From: Bryobacteraceae bacterium
GTDB lineage: Bacteria > Acidobacteriota > Terriglobia > Bryobacterales > Bryobacteraceae
Assembly (NCBI GenBank): GCA_019748195.1
Contig: JAIEPW010000021.1
Location: forward strand, 1 to 64,000
Direction: 5' to 3'
Length of the DNA stretch: 64,000 nucleotides
Positions 315 to 7,652 of the stretch are shown here, piece by piece. The notes below the pieces were generated by a model. That model was given only the letters and a program-made list of their open reading frames with translations. It searched no databases and had not been told where the DNA came from. Each line of letters opens with the position of its first letter. Positions within the stretch are counted from its first letter, which is position 1. Made by a program: the position numbers and the translations under genes.

Positions 315-3300
315 CTAGAACAGGAAGCGGAGGCCGAACTGCATCAGACGGGGGTTATTGGAGGTGGAAACGAGCCGTCCGAAGCTGCCGGGATTGGTGA
401 TCTCGCCGGTGGCGGGGTTGATGGCGCCGCCGGAGCCGAGCACGGCGTTGACGTCGGAGATCGGGTTGGCGTAGTTCACGTGGTTGAACAGGTTGAAGAA
501 TTCGGCCCGGAACTCCACCGACATGCGCTCCCGCACAGGGAAACGCTTGAAGATGGAGAAATCGACATTGTGCTGGCTGGGGCCGGTAAGCACGTTGCGG
601 CCGAGGTTGCCGAAGTCGGTTCCGGTGGCGCCGGCGATGACGCTGCCGCGGGAGCTGGGGATCGGCGCACCGGCGACCACCACCGGGCGGATGAAGGCGG
701 CGGGGTTGAAGTAGTATCCGGGCGGAACGTTGGAGGTGGCGGTCTCACGGGTTGCGCCGGGACGCCAGCTTGCGCGGGACAGCGGGGCGCCGCCGCCGGA
801 GAGACCGTAGAAGCTGGCGGCGCCGGTGTCGACGATATCGACCGGGAGGCCGGTCATGGAGGTCCAGATTCCGGAGACCTGCCAGTTGTGGAGAAGCGCT
901 TTCGCGAATCCGTTCTCGACGCCGGGTTTCGGCAGTTCGTACAGACCGCTCATGACGAAGCGGTGGCGGCGGTCGAAGTCCGACGGCCCGCGATTGGCGC
1001 GGTTATCGAACTGGTTACCGAGGATCCCGCTGGTTTCACCGACGGCGCCGGGATTGACGACGCCGCCGAATCCAGCGCCGCCGCCCTGCCCGGAGGCATT
1101 GTCGATGGACTTGGACCAGGTGTAGGAGGCGAGGAACTGAAGGCCGGCGGAGAGGCGCTTGGTCAGGCTGGCCTGCAGGGAGTGATAGACGCTCTGCGCG
1201 GTGGACTGATTCTGGGCGAATCCGTTCAGGGAGGTCCCCTGGAAGGGGGCTCGCAGAGCGGCGTTGGCGGGCGTAGTGGTGTCGATCCGCTGTCCGGTAA
1301 CGGCATTGGTGATCGGGTTCTGCGGGGAAGCGAGCGGCGCCTGATTGATGGCGACCTGGCGGAACAGATTCACGCCGCGGGTTCCGACCCACCCGGCTTC
1401 GAGCAGCCAGTCGCGAAACATGGTCCACTGCGTGGTGAAGTTGAACTGGTGCATGTAAGGCGTGCGGATATTGCGATCGAAGAACGTGCCGGAGAGGGCG
1501 ACGCCCGGGACCAGCGTGGGGAAGGCGCTCTCGGGCGGCACCGGGAAGAAGGGGTTGCTCACCGAGCCGGGCGTGTTCAGCACCTGGGCTCCGAAGACGT
1601 AGGTGGGAGGCGCGATCACATTCAGGGTGATGTACTGCGCCGAGGTCCGCGAATAGTACATGCCGTAGCCGCCGCGGAACACCAGGCGCTCCGTGCCGTA
1701 GGGCGCATAGGCGAAGCCGAAGCGGGGGGCCAGGTTGTTGGGATCGCTCGATTTCAGCACGTAGCGCGTGTCCGCGTTGGGAATCGTGGGGTCGTCGAAC
1801 TGGCGAGTGGCGTTGCCGGCCTGGATGAAGCCCGCCACCGGAGGTCCGATGGGAACGCCGCCGATGGCCAGCGGGCGCGGCTGATATAGGCCGGGATCGA
1901 AGGTGGTGATGCGGCCGCGCGTATCCCAAAACGGGGCGATGCGCTCATAGCGTACGCCGAAGTTGAGGGTCAGCTTGGAGGTGATTTTCCAGTCGTCCTG
2001 AGCGAACAGCGACCAATCTCCGGCACGGAGCGAGCGATTGCCGATCCCGGACCCGAAGATGGAAATGAAGGGGCGCCCGACCAGGAAGTCGTTGAAGCTC
2101 AGGAAGTCGAGTTGGCCGCGGGTGAAGAAGCCGAGGAAGTAGTTGTTCTCGCTCCACCGGAAATCGCCGCCGGCGCGAAGGGTGTGCTTGCCGCGCGTGA
2201 TGGAAATGGTGTCGGCGAGGGTGCTGACGGGAGCGGTGGCCTTGACGTCGATGGTGGGCGCGGTGCCGAGAATGAACCCGTTCGCGGCGGCAGCCACGCG
2301 GATCATGCCCAGGCCGGGATAGATGTTCTGGTTGGCGCGGTTGATGCCGATCTGCGAATCGAGAACCGGGTGGTTCGGGAAGGCGTCCACGCGCAGGAAG
2401 CTGTAGCCGCCGCGCAGCTCGTTCACAATGCTCGGCGACAGGATGCGGATGTAAGTGAGCGAGGTCAGGCTGCCGTTGTTCTGCTGGCGGTTGCCCCAGC
2501 CGCCGATGTTCGCGCCGCTGCCCAGGAAGCTGGGGATGGCCAGAAACTGGGGGGCGTTGAAGTAGAAGAACTTGCCGAGCAGCGTGTCCTTTTCGGAAAC
2601 ACGCCAGTCGATGTTGAAGTTGCCCTGATCCTCGTCATAGCTGGAGGGCGTAAAGCCGGTATAGCGGCCGTTGGCCTGCGGCGTGGGAATGGCGAACTGG
2701 CCATTGGCGAGTCGCGTGTTGAGCAGCGACAGGGCGGCGCGGTTGATCGACGTGGCCGGATTGCCGGGTCCGATGAGCGGTTGGAAGGTGCGGAGCAGCG
2801 TAGCCTCGCTGCGATCGTCCGTCAGCCCCGGCGCCACCAGGATGTTCTGGGAGATGGAGTTGATCACGCTGGCGCTGTTGCGTTCGCGGGTGCCCTGGTA
2901 GGAGGTGAAGAAGAACAGCTTGTCCGGAATGATCCTGCCGCCCAGGGTGGCGCCGAAAACGTTGCGCTTCAGCGGGGGACGGCCGATTCCGGCGGCCTTC
3001 AGGAAAGGATTGTTGGCGTTGAAGGCGTCGTTACGCAGGAAGTAGTACAGGATCCCGTGGAACTCGTTGGTGCCGGACTTGGTCACGGCCTGCACGTTGC
3101 CTCCCGCGTTGCGGCCGAAGCTGGCGTCGTAAAGCGAGGTTTGGACCTTGAACTCCTGGATCGTCTCCGGGGCGGGGATGGAGAGCGAGGGGGCCGAATT
3201 GGTCCCGATGGAGTTGGCGTCGATGCCGTTGATGACGTAGTTGTTGTGGGTGACGCGGGCGCCGTTCACGGAAATATTCTGCGAGTTGCGCCCCACCGCG

Positions 3301-3806
3301 GTGTTGTCGGCCAGCGCCGTTGTCGCGCCGGTCGACAGGCCCAGGATCTGGGTGAAGTTGCGGGTGGCGAGCGGGAGCTCGTTCAACTGGCGGCTCTCCA
3401 CCACACGCCCCAGCACCGGCGAGGAGGTTTGCGCGAGCACCGTTTCCGCGGTTACGGTGATCGATTCATTGGGGCTGCCTGAGACTTGCAACGCGACATC
3501 GAGACCGGTGGTTTCGGTGACGCGCACGGCAACCTGCTCCAGCTTCACCGCCTTGAACCCGCCCGCCGTGACGGTGACGGTATAGGAGCCTGGCGGCAGC
3601 AGGTTGAAGGTGAAGCTGCCGGTCTGATCGGACACGGACTCGCGGCGGACGCCGGCTTCGCCGGCGAGTTCCACCTTGGCGCCCGCCACCACGGCGGCCG
3701 AAGGGTCGCGAACGACGCCCGAGATCTGGCCGGTGGCGGATGTCTGGGCGGCCAGAACACCCGCGAAGCACACGAATCCAACAGCGGCGACTACCAAACG
3801 CGGCAT
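315..3806 (-). CDS. TonB-dependent receptor, Oar-like, with carboxypeptidase-regulatory domain
   Basis: A 1163-residue outer-membrane protein. A Sec signal peptide (MPRLVVAAVGFVCFAGVLAAQ) is followed by a carboxypeptidase-regulatory-like beta-sandwich (about residues 22-115), a plug region with the GGNVQAVTKSGTNEFHG stretch, and a long beta-barrel ending in the aromatic residue F expected by the BAM machinery. Such large 'Oar-like' receptors are abundant in Acidobacteriota and take up bulky substrates or act in surface interactions; the substrate is unknown. An in-frame ATG 8 codons upstream exists, but the ATG at 3806 has a GGGAG site 9 nt before it and lies one base after the tetR stop codon, so translation is probably coupled to tetR. 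The gene is downstream of a TetR regulator and an alpha/beta hydrolase on the same strand. No SusD-like partner or TonB/ExbBD genes are nearby. Confidence 0.9.
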   Translation of the reverse strand: MPRLVVAAVGFVCFAGVLAAQTSATGQISGVVRDPSAAVVAGAKVELAGEAGVRRESVSDQTGSFTFNLLPPGSYTVTVTAGGFKAVKLEQVAVRVTETTGLDVALQVSGSPNESITVTAETVLAQTSSPVLGRVVESRQLNELPLATRNFTQILGLSTGATTALADNTAVGRNSQNISVNGARVTHNNYVINGIDANSIGTNSAPSLSIPAPETIQEFKVQTSLYDASFGRNAGGNVQAVTKSGTNEFHGILYYFLRNDAFNANNPFLKAAGIGRPPLKRNVFGATLGGRIIPDKLFFFTSYQGTRERNSASVINSISQNILVAPGLTDDRSEATLLRTFQPLIGPGNPATSINRAALSLLNTRLANGQFAIPTPQANGRYTGFTPSSYDEDQGNFNIDWRVSEKDTLLGKFFYFNAPQFLAIPSFLGSGANIGGWGNRQQNNGSLTSLTYIRILSPSIVNELRGGYSFLRVDAFPNHPVLDSQIGINRANQNIYPGLGMIRVAAAANGFILGTAPTIDVKATAPVSTLADTISITRGKHTLRAGGDFRWSENNYFLGFFTRGQLDFLSFNDFLVGRPFISIFGSGIGNRSLRAGDWSLFAQDDWKITSKLTLNFGVRYERIAPFWDTRGRITTFDPGLYQPRPLAIGGVPIGPPVAGFIQAGNATRQFDDPTIPNADTRYVLKSSDPNNLAPRFGFAYAPYGTERLVFRGGYGMYYSRTSAQYITLNVIAPPTYVFGAQVLNTPGSVSNPFFPVPPESAFPTLVPGVALSGTFFDRNIRTPYMHQFNFTTQWTMFRDWLLEAGWVGTRGVNLFRQVAINQAPLASPQNPITNAVTGQRIDTTTPANAALRAPFQGTSLNGFAQNQSTAQSVYHSLQASLTKRLSAGLQFLASYTWSKSIDNASGQGGGAGFGGVVNPGAVGETSGILGNQFDNRANRGPSDFDRRHRFVMSGLYELPKPGVENGFAKALLHNWQVSGIWTSMTGLPVDIVDTGAASFYGLSGGGAPLSRASWRPGATRETATSNVPPGYYFNPAAFIRPVVVAGAPIPSSRGSVIAGATGTDFGNLGRNVLTGPSQHNVDFSIFKRFPVRERMSVEFRAEFFNLFNHVNYANPISDVNAVLGSGGAINPATGEITNPGSFGRLVSTSNNPRLMQFGLRFLF

Positions 3807-3807
3807 T

Positions 3808-4461
3808 TCAGGAAGCTCCCTGCTTCGCACGGCGCGGCGCGGCCGGCTGGCCGCGCAACCCGTGGCTGGCGATCTGTATCAGTTGACCGATGGCCTGGTC
3901 ATCGGGCATGCCCAGATGTTCCTTGCCACCGAAGAGTTTTTCCACCAGGAAATACGTGAAGAACTGCAGGTACACGGCGGTAAAAGCCAGCGCGGGATCG
4001 ATGCCGTTCCAGGCGCCTTTTGCGGCGGCCTGGCGCAGGCGGTCGCCAAGGCGGGCTTCCATGTTGCGGGCCAGGCCGCGGAAGCTGCCGGCGAAGTGGC
4101 GGTTGCCGAACTCGACCACATCGATGTACATCAGCCGCCAGTAGTCCGGGTTGCCGTAGACGATCTTCTGCACGGCGGCGGCGAGTTGCTTGAGCCCGTC
4201 GGGGTCGAACACGTTGTCCAGGGGGCCGAGCGCCTCGGCGCGCAGGCCCTCCATCTTCGCCTCGTAGCTGGCGACGATGGCCGAGAACAGCTTCTCCTTG
4301 GTCGGGTAGTAGTTGTAGATATTCCCGACGGAGACCTTGCAGGCCTTGGCGATGTCGCGGAGCGAGGTGCCGTGGTAGCCCTGCTTAATGAACATGCGCA
4401 TGGCGGCCTGCTGGATCCTGCGCTTGTTCCGCTCGATGTCTTGATCTTTCAGGCGAGGCAT
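3808..4461 (-). CDS. TetR family transcriptional regulator
   Basis: A 217-residue repressor-type protein. The N-terminal helix-turn-helix (residues about 10-60) contains the family signature GYHGTSLRDIAKACKVSVGNIYNYYPTKEKLF; the C-terminal 150 residues are the all-helical ligand-binding and dimerisation domain, which does not reveal the ligand. It is preceded by a strong promoter flanked by two copies of a 9-bp repeat, suggesting autoregulation, and is followed one base later by the TonB-dependent receptor start. The likely role is therefore control of its own two-gene operon with the receptor. The C-terminus is basic (RRAKQGAS). Confidence 0.93.
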   Translation of the reverse strand: MPRLKDQDIERNKRRIQQAAMRMFIKQGYHGTSLRDIAKACKVSVGNIYNYYPTKEKLFSAIVASYEAKMEGLRAEALGPLDNVFDPDGLKQLAAAVQKIVYGNPDYWRLMYIDVVEFGNRHFAGSFRGLARNMEARLGDRLRQAAAKGAWNGIDPALAFTAVYLQFFTYFLVEKLFGGKEHLGMPDDQAIGQLIQIASHGLRGQPAAPRRAKQGAS

Positions 4462-4472
4462 AACACGAACGG

Positions 4473-4539
4473 ACGCTCGTTTTCTTAAGCAAGAATAAGC
4501 AACACGGCGGGCGGTGTCAAGAAAAAATGAACGCTCGTT
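4473..4539 (-). promoter_or_regulatory. tetR promoter with two flanking operator-like repeats
   Basis: On the reverse strand TTGACA (4520-4515), a 17-nt spacer and TATTCT (4497-4492) form a near-consensus sigma-70 promoter, giving a start near 4485. A 9-bp repeat, AACGAGCGT on the reverse strand, occurs at 4539-4531 (upstream of the -35) and again at 4481-4473 (just downstream of the start point). Two identical sites bracketing one promoter in front of a TetR gene are best read as TetR operators; that TetR binds them is inference. The distal copy overlaps the stop codon of the upstream hydrolase gene. Confidence 0.7.
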
Positions 4540-5347
4540 ATTTTTGAAGCGTGGAGGCGAAGCTGCGGAGGCACCGGACGAAGTGCTCCGGGGCCTCGAT
4601 CTGAGGCATGTGGCCGGCGCCGGGGAGGATCTCGAGGCGCGCTCCGGGAATACTCGCGGCGGCGATATGGGCGTTTTCCACCGGGATTCGCGAGTCGAGC
4701 TCGCCCCACAGGATCAAGGCCGGAACGGGGATTTCCGGCAGCCGGTCGCGCAGGTTGTACTCGTGCGCGAGCGGAATCGCCTGGGCGAGCATGGCGGCGT
4801 AATCGGCGTAATCCGGCCGGAGGGTCATGGCCGCCTGCTTTTCGATGTAGCGGCGGGAATTCTCCGACGGGACGGGGAAGAGTTGGGAGAACAAAGCTCG
4901 CGCGTCCGCCGGTTTCATGCCTGCCAGGTAACCGGGGTTGAGCCGGGCATAGATGGCGCCGAGTTCTTCGGCCGAGTAGCGCCGGATGCCGGCGCTTCCC
5001 ACCAGGACCAGGGCTTGGGCGGGATGGCGGAGGGCGTAGCTGATGGCGATCGACCCGCCCCAGGAGTTTCCCGCCAGGATGGGGTGCTGAATCCCCGCGG
5101 ACTGGAGAAGCTCGTGGAGTGTTTCGACGAAGAACCCGGCCGTATACCGGCGGCGGGGTTTGGCGGAGGCGCCATAGCCCGGAAGGTCGACCGCGAACAC
5201 GCGGAACTCGCGGGACAGGGGCTGGAGGACCGGCCACCAGTCCTGATGATCCCCGAACTGCCCGTGGAGGAGCACCAGCGGGGGACCTGAGCCGGCGTCA
5301 TAGGCCGCCAGCCTCATCCCGGCGGCTTCGAAGGTCTTCAGGCTCAT
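4538..5347 (-). CDS. Alpha/beta hydrolase
   Basis: A 269-residue cytoplasmic alpha/beta-hydrolase-fold enzyme with no signal peptide. The oxyanion HG motif is in VLLHGQFGDHQDWW, the nucleophile elbow is GNSWGG (Ser95), the acid is Asp218 in ILWGELDSRIP and the base is His246 in GAGHMPQIE, so the triad is complete and correctly spaced. The open frame continues upstream without good starts; the ATG at 5347 is chosen because GGAG lies 8-10 nt before it and homologues start just before the first beta strand. The substrate is unknown; family members include esterases, C-C hydrolases and haloperoxidase-like enzymes. It precedes tetR on the same strand but tetR has its own promoter. Confidence 0.9.
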   Translation of the reverse strand: MSLKTFEAAGMRLAAYDAGSGPPLVLLHGQFGDHQDWWPVLQPLSREFRVFAVDLPGYGASAKPRRRYTAGFFVETLHELLQSAGIQHPILAGNSWGGSIAISYALRHPAQALVLVGSAGIRRYSAEELGAIYARLNPGYLAGMKPADARALFSQLFPVPSENSRRYIEKQAAMTLRPDYADYAAMLAQAIPLAHEYNLRDRLPEIPVPALILWGELDSRIPVENAHIAAASIPGARLEILPGAGHMPQIEAPEHFVRCLRSFASTLQK

Positions 5348-5441
5348 TCTCGCGGCTCCACATGGGGAATGTAGCGCAATGCGGGCGTTAATGTTTTGGA
5401 CGGAAATCGCCGATTCAAGGGCGTTCGGGTGAATCAACCCC

Positions 5442-7652
5442 ATGCGCAACAGCCAGCATGTCTTGGCCGCGGGATGGCTCGCCTTGCCGTTTTCGGCGGC
5501 TTGCCTGGGCACCGCCCTGGTGCTCGATGACGCGCCGATCCGGCTGCTGCTGGCGGGCGTGGCGGCGATCGGCATCCTGCCGATGGGACCGATGCTGAAG
5601 CATCGCCGCGAACTCCTGAGCAAGGGCGATCCCGGCCTGGAGCTCCACGAAAGCGAACAGCGCTATCGCAGCCTTTTTGAGAACGTTCTGGAAGGGGTGT
5701 ACCAGACGGCGGAGGACGGCGCGATTCTGGCCGCGAATCCGGCTTTGGTGCGGATGCTCGGTTATTCGTCGGAGCAGGAGTTGAAGCACTCGGTGACGGC
5801 ACGGGACCTGTACGCGGACGCGGGCGACCGCGGGTATCTGCTGGCGCGGCTGGAGGCGGACGGCGAGTTGCGCAATGTCGAGCTGACGCTGCGGCGCAAG
5901 GACGGCTCGCACATCACCGTGCTCGAGAACAGCCGAAGAGTGCGGGATGAGCGGACCGGCGATGTTCACTACGAGGGGACGCTGGCCGACATCACGGAGC
6001 GGAAACGCGCGGAGCAGGAGTTGCTGCGATTCACCTTCGAGGCGGAATCCGCGCGGCGGCGGATGGAAGAGCAGGCGGTGCAGCTTCGCGATCAGGCGCG
6101 AGAACTGCGCGAGGCTCGCGACGCCGCGCTCGAAGCATCGCGGCTGAAGTCGGCATTCCTGGCCAACGTCAGCCATGAGATCCGCACGCCGATGAACGGC
6201 ATTCTGGGCATGATCGACCTGCTGCTGGCCAAGCCGCTCGAAGGAGAGCAGCGGGAGCTGGCCGAGATGGCGCGCATCTCGGCCCAGCACCTGCTGCTGA
6301 TCCTAAACGACCTGCTGGATTTCTCCAAGGTGGAAGCCGGCCGGATGACGCTGAAGAACGAAGCGTTCTCACCGCGCGAGGAGACCGAGGAAACGGTGGA
6401 ACTGCTGGCATCCCGGGCGGGCGAGAAGAATCTGGAGTTTCTGTGCCACATCGATCCCGGTGTTCCCGAGATTGTGCGGGGCGACGCGGGGCGGGTCCGG
6501 CAGGTGCTGACGAATCTGATCGGCAACGCCATCAAGTTCACCGAGCAGGGCAGCGTGGAGGTGCGATGCGTGCGGGAGGAAAACGGGCTCCGCTGGGAGA
6601 TCCGCGACACCGGAATCGGCATCAGCCCGGAGATCCTGCCGCGGTTGTTCACGCCGTTCTATCAGGCCGACGGGTCCTGGACGCGGCGTTACGGAGGCAC
6701 GGGCCTGGGGCTGGCGATTTCACGCGAACTGGCGCGCCTGCTGGGCGGCGATGTAGGCGTGGAGAGCCGGTGGAACGAAGGCTCATGCTTCTGGTTCACG
6801 GCGTGTTTCGAGCAGATCCCCTCCGGATCGCCTCCCGCGCGCACGCCGCCCGAAAGCAGGGTGCTGATTTTCGATCCCTGCGAGCGGTCGCGGCGCAGCC
6901 TTCGTTCCCAATTGAAGGGACAGCCGGTGATGGTGGCGTCCACCGGGAGCGGGGCGGCGGCGGTGAGACTTCTTCGGCTGGCGGCACAGGCGGGCGAACC
7001 CTTTGACTTCGCGATCTGCGACGCTCGCTCCGGGGACTGGATCGCGGCGGTGCTTCGCGACGAATCGTCGCGGCATACGCGGCTGGTGCGGATGGTGCGT
7101 CCGGGATTCCAGCCCGCCGGCGCCTTCGCGGGAGTCGCGGCGATCCCCAAGCCTCCGCGGCGCAAGGCCCTGTTGGAGGCGTTGCGGCCGGCGGAAGTTC
7201 CCGCGGCGGGTGTCGCGCTGCGGCCGGACGCGCCGCCGTACGCGGCGGAGAAAGCCGGGCGCGCGCACGCGGCCGTTCTCATCGCCGAGGACAACCGCAT
7301 CAATCAGAAGGTCGCCGTCCGGCTGGTGCAGCGCCTGGGCTATCGCGCGGAAGTCGCGGGCAACGGAATCGAAGCTCTCGACGCGCTGGAGCGGGGCGAG
7401 TACGCCCTGGTCCTGATGGATTGCCAGATGCCCGAAATGGATGGTTTCGAGGCTACAGCCCGCATTCGCGAGCGGGAACACGGCGCGCGGCGCAGCGTGA
7501 TTGTCGCCATGACCGCTCACGCCATGCAGGGCGATCGCGAACGGTGCCTGGCGGCGGGCATGGATGATTACCTGAGCAAGCCGATCGAGACCGTGGAGCT
7601 CGGCCGGGTGCTGGAGAAGTGGCTGGGACCGCAGCCCTCGGTCCGCCGCTAG
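5442..7652 (+). CDS. Hybrid sensor histidine kinase / response regulator
   Basis: A 736-residue membrane sensor kinase. Two hydrophobic segments (about 8-28 and 33-53) make a short membrane anchor, followed by a PAS domain (about 72-185), a coiled coil (190-232), HisKA with phospho-accepting His245 in NVSHEIRTPMNG, and an HATPase domain with N-box (NAIKF), G1 (DTGIGI) and G2 (GGTGLGL). Two receiver domains follow. The first (about 472-582) is degenerate: its acidic pair is reduced to FDP, but Asp527 and Lys570 can still be aligned. The second (about 611-730) is complete with Asp660 in LMDCQMPEMDG and Lys713 in SKP. No output or Hpt domain is present, so a separate phosphotransfer partner is expected. 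It is divergent from the alpha/beta hydrolase. The signal is unknown. Confidence 0.95.
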   Translation: MRNSQHVLAAGWLALPFSAACLGTALVLDDAPIRLLLAGVAAIGILPMGPMLKHRRELLSKGDPGLELHESEQRYRSLFENVLEGVYQTAEDGAILAANPALVRMLGYSSEQELKHSVTARDLYADAGDRGYLLARLEADGELRNVELTLRRKDGSHITVLENSRRVRDERTGDVHYEGTLADITERKRAEQELLRFTFEAESARRRMEEQAVQLRDQARELREARDAALEASRLKSAFLANVSHEIRTPMNGILGMIDLLLAKPLEGEQRELAEMARISAQHLLLILNDLLDFSKVEAGRMTLKNEAFSPREETEETVELLASRAGEKNLEFLCHIDPGVPEIVRGDAGRVRQVLTNLIGNAIKFTEQGSVEVRCVREENGLRWEIRDTGIGISPEILPRLFTPFYQADGSWTRRYGGTGLGLAISRELARLLGGDVGVESRWNEGSCFWFTACFEQIPSGSPPARTPPESRVLIFDPCERSRRSLRSQLKGQPVMVASTGSGAAAVRLLRLAAQAGEPFDFAICDARSGDWIAAVLRDESSRHTRLVRMVRPGFQPAGAFAGVAAIPKPPRRKALLEALRPAEVPAAGVALRPDAPPYAAEKAGRAHAAVLIAEDNRINQKVAVRLVQRLGYRAEVAGNGIEALDALERGEYALVLMDCQMPEMDGFEATARIREREHGARRSVIVAMTAHAMQGDRERCLAAGMDDYLSKPIETVELGRVLEKWLGPQPSVRR

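Follow-up and report, generated by a model that had tools for sequence, protein, structure and literature searches.

A putative palindromic operator at the promoter of a tetR–receptor gene pair of a Bryobacteraceae bacterium and its counterparts in other Acidobacteriota

Known TetR-type switches and the layout of the locus

Two described systems resemble the locus studied here, and both are taken from the excerpts of the papers that we cite. TetR recognises two palindromic operators of 15 bp (PMC3511530). In Pseudomonas aeruginosa the gene of the TetR-type protein PA3973 opens a predicted operon, and two (pseudo)palindromes of 14 bp are located at its own promoter (PMC9736018). We analysed a stretch of 64 kb from a Bryobacteraceae bacterium, below called the window, in which a tetR-type gene is directly followed by a gene for an outer-membrane receptor (Table 1). 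With the TetR/tetO system, as outlined in these excerpts, the locus appears to share the protein family, the palindromic form and approximate length of the operators, their presence as a pair at the promoter, and autorepression (PMC3511530, PMC9736018). However, tetR is there divergent from an efflux gene, whereas here repressor and receptor are arranged head to tail on one strand, and the operator sequence is not the same. With PA3973 the locus shares a TetR-type first gene and two palindromes at its own promoter; yet, according to the same excerpt, the PA3973 sites lie around the -10 element, 11 bp apart, instead of flanking the promoter, and both motif and neighbours differ (PMC9736018).

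A further likeness is suggested by a structural model. SaFadR, FasR and DesT are among the best structural matches of the modelled repressor, and acyl-chain enzymes occur in many of the homologous modules. The sequence identity to these proteins, however, is 12–19%, and in our locus the neighbouring gene codes for an outer-membrane receptor. In the open-licence literature on TetR proteins and TonB-dependent receptors in Acidobacteria, on autoregulation and on the letters of the operator, we recognised nothing as this operator or module.

Table 1. Positions of genes and predicted control elements in the window
Feature	Position	Strand	Remarks
Outer-membrane receptor gene	315..3806	minus	CarboxypepD_reg, Plug, OMP_b-brl_4; directly 3′ of tetR
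TetR-family repressor gene	3808..4461	minus	217 aa; PF00440 60.9 bits, cut-off 24
Main operator, putative, AAACGAGCGTCCGTTC	4467..4482	minus	16-bp imperfect palindrome; centre at about +10.5; includes 9-mer 4473-4481
Promoter TTGACA-17-TATTCT	4492..4520	minus	-35 = 4520-4515, -10 = 4497-4492
Accessory operator, putative, TAACGAGCGTTCATTT	4525..4540	minus	centre at about -47.5, just 5′ of -35; includes 9-mer 4531-4539
Alpha/beta hydrolase gene	4538..5347	minus	upstream of tetR; PF00561 111.7 bits

A palindrome at the predicted transcription start

The original prediction described a near-consensus promoter flanked by identical 9-mers, and the window sequence confirms all coordinates of this arrangement. 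Between positions 3700 and 5600 the scan found a single promoter-like site (10 of 12 matches; mean of 0.3 in shuffled sequences), and its position places the predicted start at about 4485. The 9-mer AACGAGCGT is present in exactly two copies in the window, both on the minus strand. The expectation is 0.64 per window, and two copies were reached in 14 of 100 shuffles. Moreover, when the 110 nt 5′ of tetR were dinucleotide-shuffled 5000 times, some repeated 9-mer was also present in 167 cases. The bare repeat is therefore only suggestive and weak evidence.

Judged from the sequence, the real units are two putative operators in the form of imperfect palindromes of 16 bp with the consensus AAACGAnCGnTCGTTT, and the shared 9-mer is a part of each. 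We reject a direct 9-bp repeat as binding unit, as the homologues keep the palindrome and not the direct repeat. Our first set comprised 26 loci from a scan of the genome collection and gave 22 usable upstream regions besides that of the window (for L013 it measures only 27 nt). The operator set excludes L026, which starts inside tetR, and L028-L030, which match in the helix-turn-helix only and are not from Acidobacteriota. A palindromic motif search in the 22 homologues and the window yielded AAACGAGCGCTCGTTT; its log-likelihood ratio is 199.8, compared with 32-46 in eight shuffled sets. We then scored the window with a matrix from the 22 Acidobacteriota homologues alone, which corresponds to 18 distinct sites. 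Among all positions of the 64 kb the main operator ranks first (20.5 bits) and the accessory operator second (17.9 bits). Random sequence of the window's composition contains 0.16 sites of at least 16 bits per 64 kb, and with the same matrix two non-overlapping sites of at least 16 bits turned up in none of the 5000 shuffled versions of the 110-nt region 5′ of tetR. By sequence, a palindromic operator is thus predicted at the promoter of the tetR gene itself.

That each member of the first set has a site is partly forced, because the motif search presupposed a single site in every sequence. A second set served as an unforced test of the operator. The TetR protein is found at E ≤ 1e-25 in 49 of 396 genomes of the phylum, the window's own included, and 29 of the 53 other matches were covered as loci, 16 in a close and 13 in a distant set. 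The close set (L050-L065) consists of 16 new loci with 38–62% identity. In 15 of these a site of at least 16 bits lies within 200 nt upstream, compared with 23 of 3200 shuffles; the remaining one, L064, has none upstream but a 15.9-bit site just 3′ of tetR. In the distant set (30–36% identity) a similar upstream site was seen in 6 of the 13 homologues (L067, L069, L070, L072, L074, L075), mostly without a detected receptor, so that this type of operator may extend beyond the tetR–receptor module.

These results bear on the possibility that the repeat arose by chance, or that direct repeats are read by another factor, at a promoter without TetR control. The shuffling counts given above for the 9-mer would allow for it. 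Nevertheless both copies lie inside the window's two best matches to a palindrome defined by the homologues only, and the site accompanies TetR in nearly all of the independent close loci. In our view neither reading is at all probable, and we continue with the palindrome as a putative TetR operator.

Where does the palindrome sit? The promoters of the homologues are best matches picked by a script, and the positions relative to the start are therefore predictions. A promoter is visible in 21 loci of the first set, and in 19 of them the site is centred at +0.5 to +21.5, with L009 (+59.5) and L014 (+52.5) as exceptions. In the second set its centre falls between -0.5 and +4.5 relative to the predicted start in 14 of 16 loci, mostly with a TTGACA-type promoter, and L060 and L064 do not fit this rule. 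Two downstream sites are present in L005, L007, L008, L023 and L024. A strong site 5′ of the -35 element is found only in the window (-47.5/+10.5), in L018 (-53.5/+16.5) and in L020 (-60.5/+16.5). As far as the predicted starts tell, the conserved element is one palindrome on the transcription start and not a two-sided layout. The earlier notion of an operator layout for autoregulation thus appears to hold insofar as putative operators lie at the promoter; the unit, however, is a palindrome, its presence on both sides is unusual and it is the copy on the start that is conserved. The upstream copy is best taken as accessory. The spacings of the paired sites (58, 70 and 77 bp) are without helical phasing across the loci, and DNA looping between the two sites of the window is not supported.

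The accessory copy also touches the hydrolase gene. Its 9-mer shares two bases with the TAA of the hydrolase (4540-4538), and the 16-bp site spans the entire stop codon. The overlap behind the claim of a partly coding control element is therefore real, but it amounts to a stop-codon overlap only. We do not count the hydrolase to the regulon of TetR, as its 5′ region contains no operator (best 4.7 bits).

One could also imagine that TetR has, at least in part, an activating function exerted from the site 5′ of the -35 element, while the copy at the start provides feedback repression. Activators are often located upstream of the -35 element, and the accessory site would be in this common position. 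The excerpt cited above reports that the TetR-type protein LuxR of Vibrio alginolyticus is able to act as repressor or activator according to the site (PMC9736018). Almost no homologue, however, has a site 5′ of -35, the promoter as it stands deviates little from the consensus, and of the two sites the one on the start has the higher score. We therefore consider an activating role very unlikely and regard repression from the start site as the probable function.

The genome of the bacterium was also searched for further operators, as the original prediction had proposed, but other targets did not emerge as a group: with up to two mismatches the pattern is found at 169 sites per strand compared with 224 for the reversed control, and there is no genome-wide enrichment. 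Besides the two sites of the window, nine sites have at most one mismatch, and eight of these are inside long open frames. The ninth (one mismatch, L033 1501-1514, C79:9514-9527 of the same genome) is located about 24 nt 5′ of the probable start codon (ATG) of another TetR gene, which is oriented divergently from a second receptor gene. This receptor is 35% identical to the receptor of the window, and a further TetR/receptor pair of the genome is thus accompanied by a site of similar sequence. Beyond it no convincing further target was found in the rest of the genome. The barrel family PF25183 has 89 matches in this 5.8-Mb genome, some of which are pieces of one gene, and has undergone a large expansion.

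Probable joint control of repressor and receptor

The receptor contains a Plug domain (PF07715, 28.3 bits, cut-off 23.9) and an outer-membrane beta barrel (PF25183, 654 bits, cut-off 30); PF00593 reaches 23.7 and stays under its cut-off of 27. Repressor and receptor genes are joined by TGA-A-ATG. With this gap of 1 nt a single transcript should carry both genes, and the window scan detected no terminator-like site between them on their strand. The gene order is widespread. In 21 of the 23 loci of the first scan (L005-L027) a receptor gene is found 3′ of tetR on the same strand; of the two loci without a receptor call, the contig ends in L020 and none was found in L027. In the second set, with a flank of about 1.5 kb for each locus, a receptor follows in 12 of the 16 loci, and in the other four no receptor was detected next to tetR. 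Autoregulation together with control of the downstream receptor, as originally predicted, thus appears well supported by the comparison of homologues and by the junction.

It is conceivable that TetR represses its own gene only and that expression of the receptor depends mainly on a separate promoter, be it that of the receptor gene itself or a different one, with read-through from upstream as one possibility. In L021 and L022 a second operator is located directly 5′ of the receptor gene (locus position 5712-5727, 19.7 bits), and in some lineages the receptor may therefore be served by a promoter of its own. In the window, however, the junction leaves no space for a promoter outside tetR, and the promoter scan of 3700-5600 is empty between the two genes. 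Such a restricted role of TetR seems unlikely to us. We consider it highly probable, from the arrangement of the sequence elements, that the TetR-type protein of the locus negatively autoregulates its own gene and represses, jointly with it, the gene of the TonB-dependent-type receptor, and that a ligand relieves this repression.

Promoter, palindromes, their conservation and position and the gene order are read from the sequence; binding, repression, co-transcription and ligand we infer, and we suggest the following steps. A TetR dimer would bind at its own promoter, to the 16-bp palindrome that spans about +3 to +18. Bound TetR could then block the initiation of transcription. TetR may also occupy the second copy 5′ of the -35 element, which would probably tighten the repression or block read-through from the hydrolase gene. 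As tetR and receptor would be on a single transcript, both would be repressed together. Finally, a ligand would remove TetR from the DNA, and repressor and receptor would be induced together.

What could the ligand be? The repressor has the N-terminal TetR helix-turn-helix domain (PF00440), and its AlphaFold2 model (pLDDT 85.5) is all helical with a TetR fold and a C-terminal ligand domain. In a structure comparison 767 of 1000 chains have a Z-score of at least 8, and the top rows are all TetR-type. The closest fold is SaFadR (Z 15.9, rmsd 2.9, 189 aligned), followed by the putative regulator MLR_4833, by FasR (Z 14.7) and a few rows down by DesT (Z 14.2). All three acyl-CoA regulators are in the top ten, and acyl-CoA complexes are among the listed structure entries for each of them. 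Unrelated TetR-type proteins are 1-3 Z lower, QacR and RutR 2-3 Z lower. The family models of FadR (NF053878, 30 bits, cut-off 200) and FasR (NF053731, 33.5, cut-off 330) were not reached and match at the helix-turn-helix end only. Because of the fold matches and the acyl-chain enzymes in the module of the homologues, an acyl-CoA-like inducer is our best guess. The enzymes, however, were not found in the genome of the window itself. Judging from the modelled fold and the neighbourhood only, the ligand may perhaps be acyl-CoA-like or otherwise lipid-like. Within the ligand domain, residues 105-123 (window 4093-4149) are strikingly conserved as DYWRLMYIDVVEFxNxHF in an alignment of 20 sequences, the one from the window among them, out of 23 in the first set. 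This is a promising region for contacts to the ligand or between the subunits of the dimer.

A patchy module of acyl-chain enzymes

We surveyed the surroundings of tetR and receptor in 26 loci, many of which are ended by contig ends or flank limits. According to domain assignments the receptor is followed by a FabH-like KASIII in 12 and by a FabG-like SDR in 10 of the 26 loci. SDR, KASIII and acyl-CoA ligase recur behind the receptor (L079 671-4138; flanks of L007-L009, L014, L021-L026 and L081), and in L079 and L009 the KASIII is followed by an acyl-CoA ligase. An alpha/beta hydrolase is found 5′ of tetR in L008, L009, L014, L079 and the window, and 3′ of the receptor in L005, L017, L021, L022 and L081.

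In the window this part of the module is out of view, because the window begins at base 1 of the contig and the receptor gene ends 314 bases from the contig start. A KASIII of the module type was not found elsewhere in the same genome, where the best match has 35% identity compared with 44–74% for the module KASIIIs with the same query. The genome of L005, the closest relative by its receptor, likewise gave no module enzymes (best 34%). The enzymes are either absent here or located in an assembly gap. Given the contig end and the absence of the KASIII elsewhere in the genome, what the window contains may be a reduced module. In none of the 60 nearest genomes is the TetR protein present at E ≤ 1e-25. 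The distribution is thus patchy, and this argues against simple inheritance from close relatives.

It is possible, if somewhat doubtful, that the window is a reduced copy of a module which is scattered patchily over the whole phylum of the Acidobacteriota. In such a module a lipid-sensing TetR with the operator described here would co-regulate the receptor and the acyl-chain enzymes (FabG-like SDR, FabH-like KASIII, acyl-CoA ligase, alpha/beta hydrolase) for importing, or for making and exporting, an acyl compound.

In summary, the switch is of an ordinary textbook kind, found in a little-studied gene set that is scattered over one bacterial phylum. The phylum-wide module of tetR, receptor, SDR or hydrolase, KASIII and acyl-CoA ligase is the more interesting part. 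To our knowledge, cargo and control of such receptors of the Acidobacteriota are largely unknown. A defined repressor together with its operator offers a simple assay, and compounds which free TetR from the DNA would indicate the substrate of the receptor.
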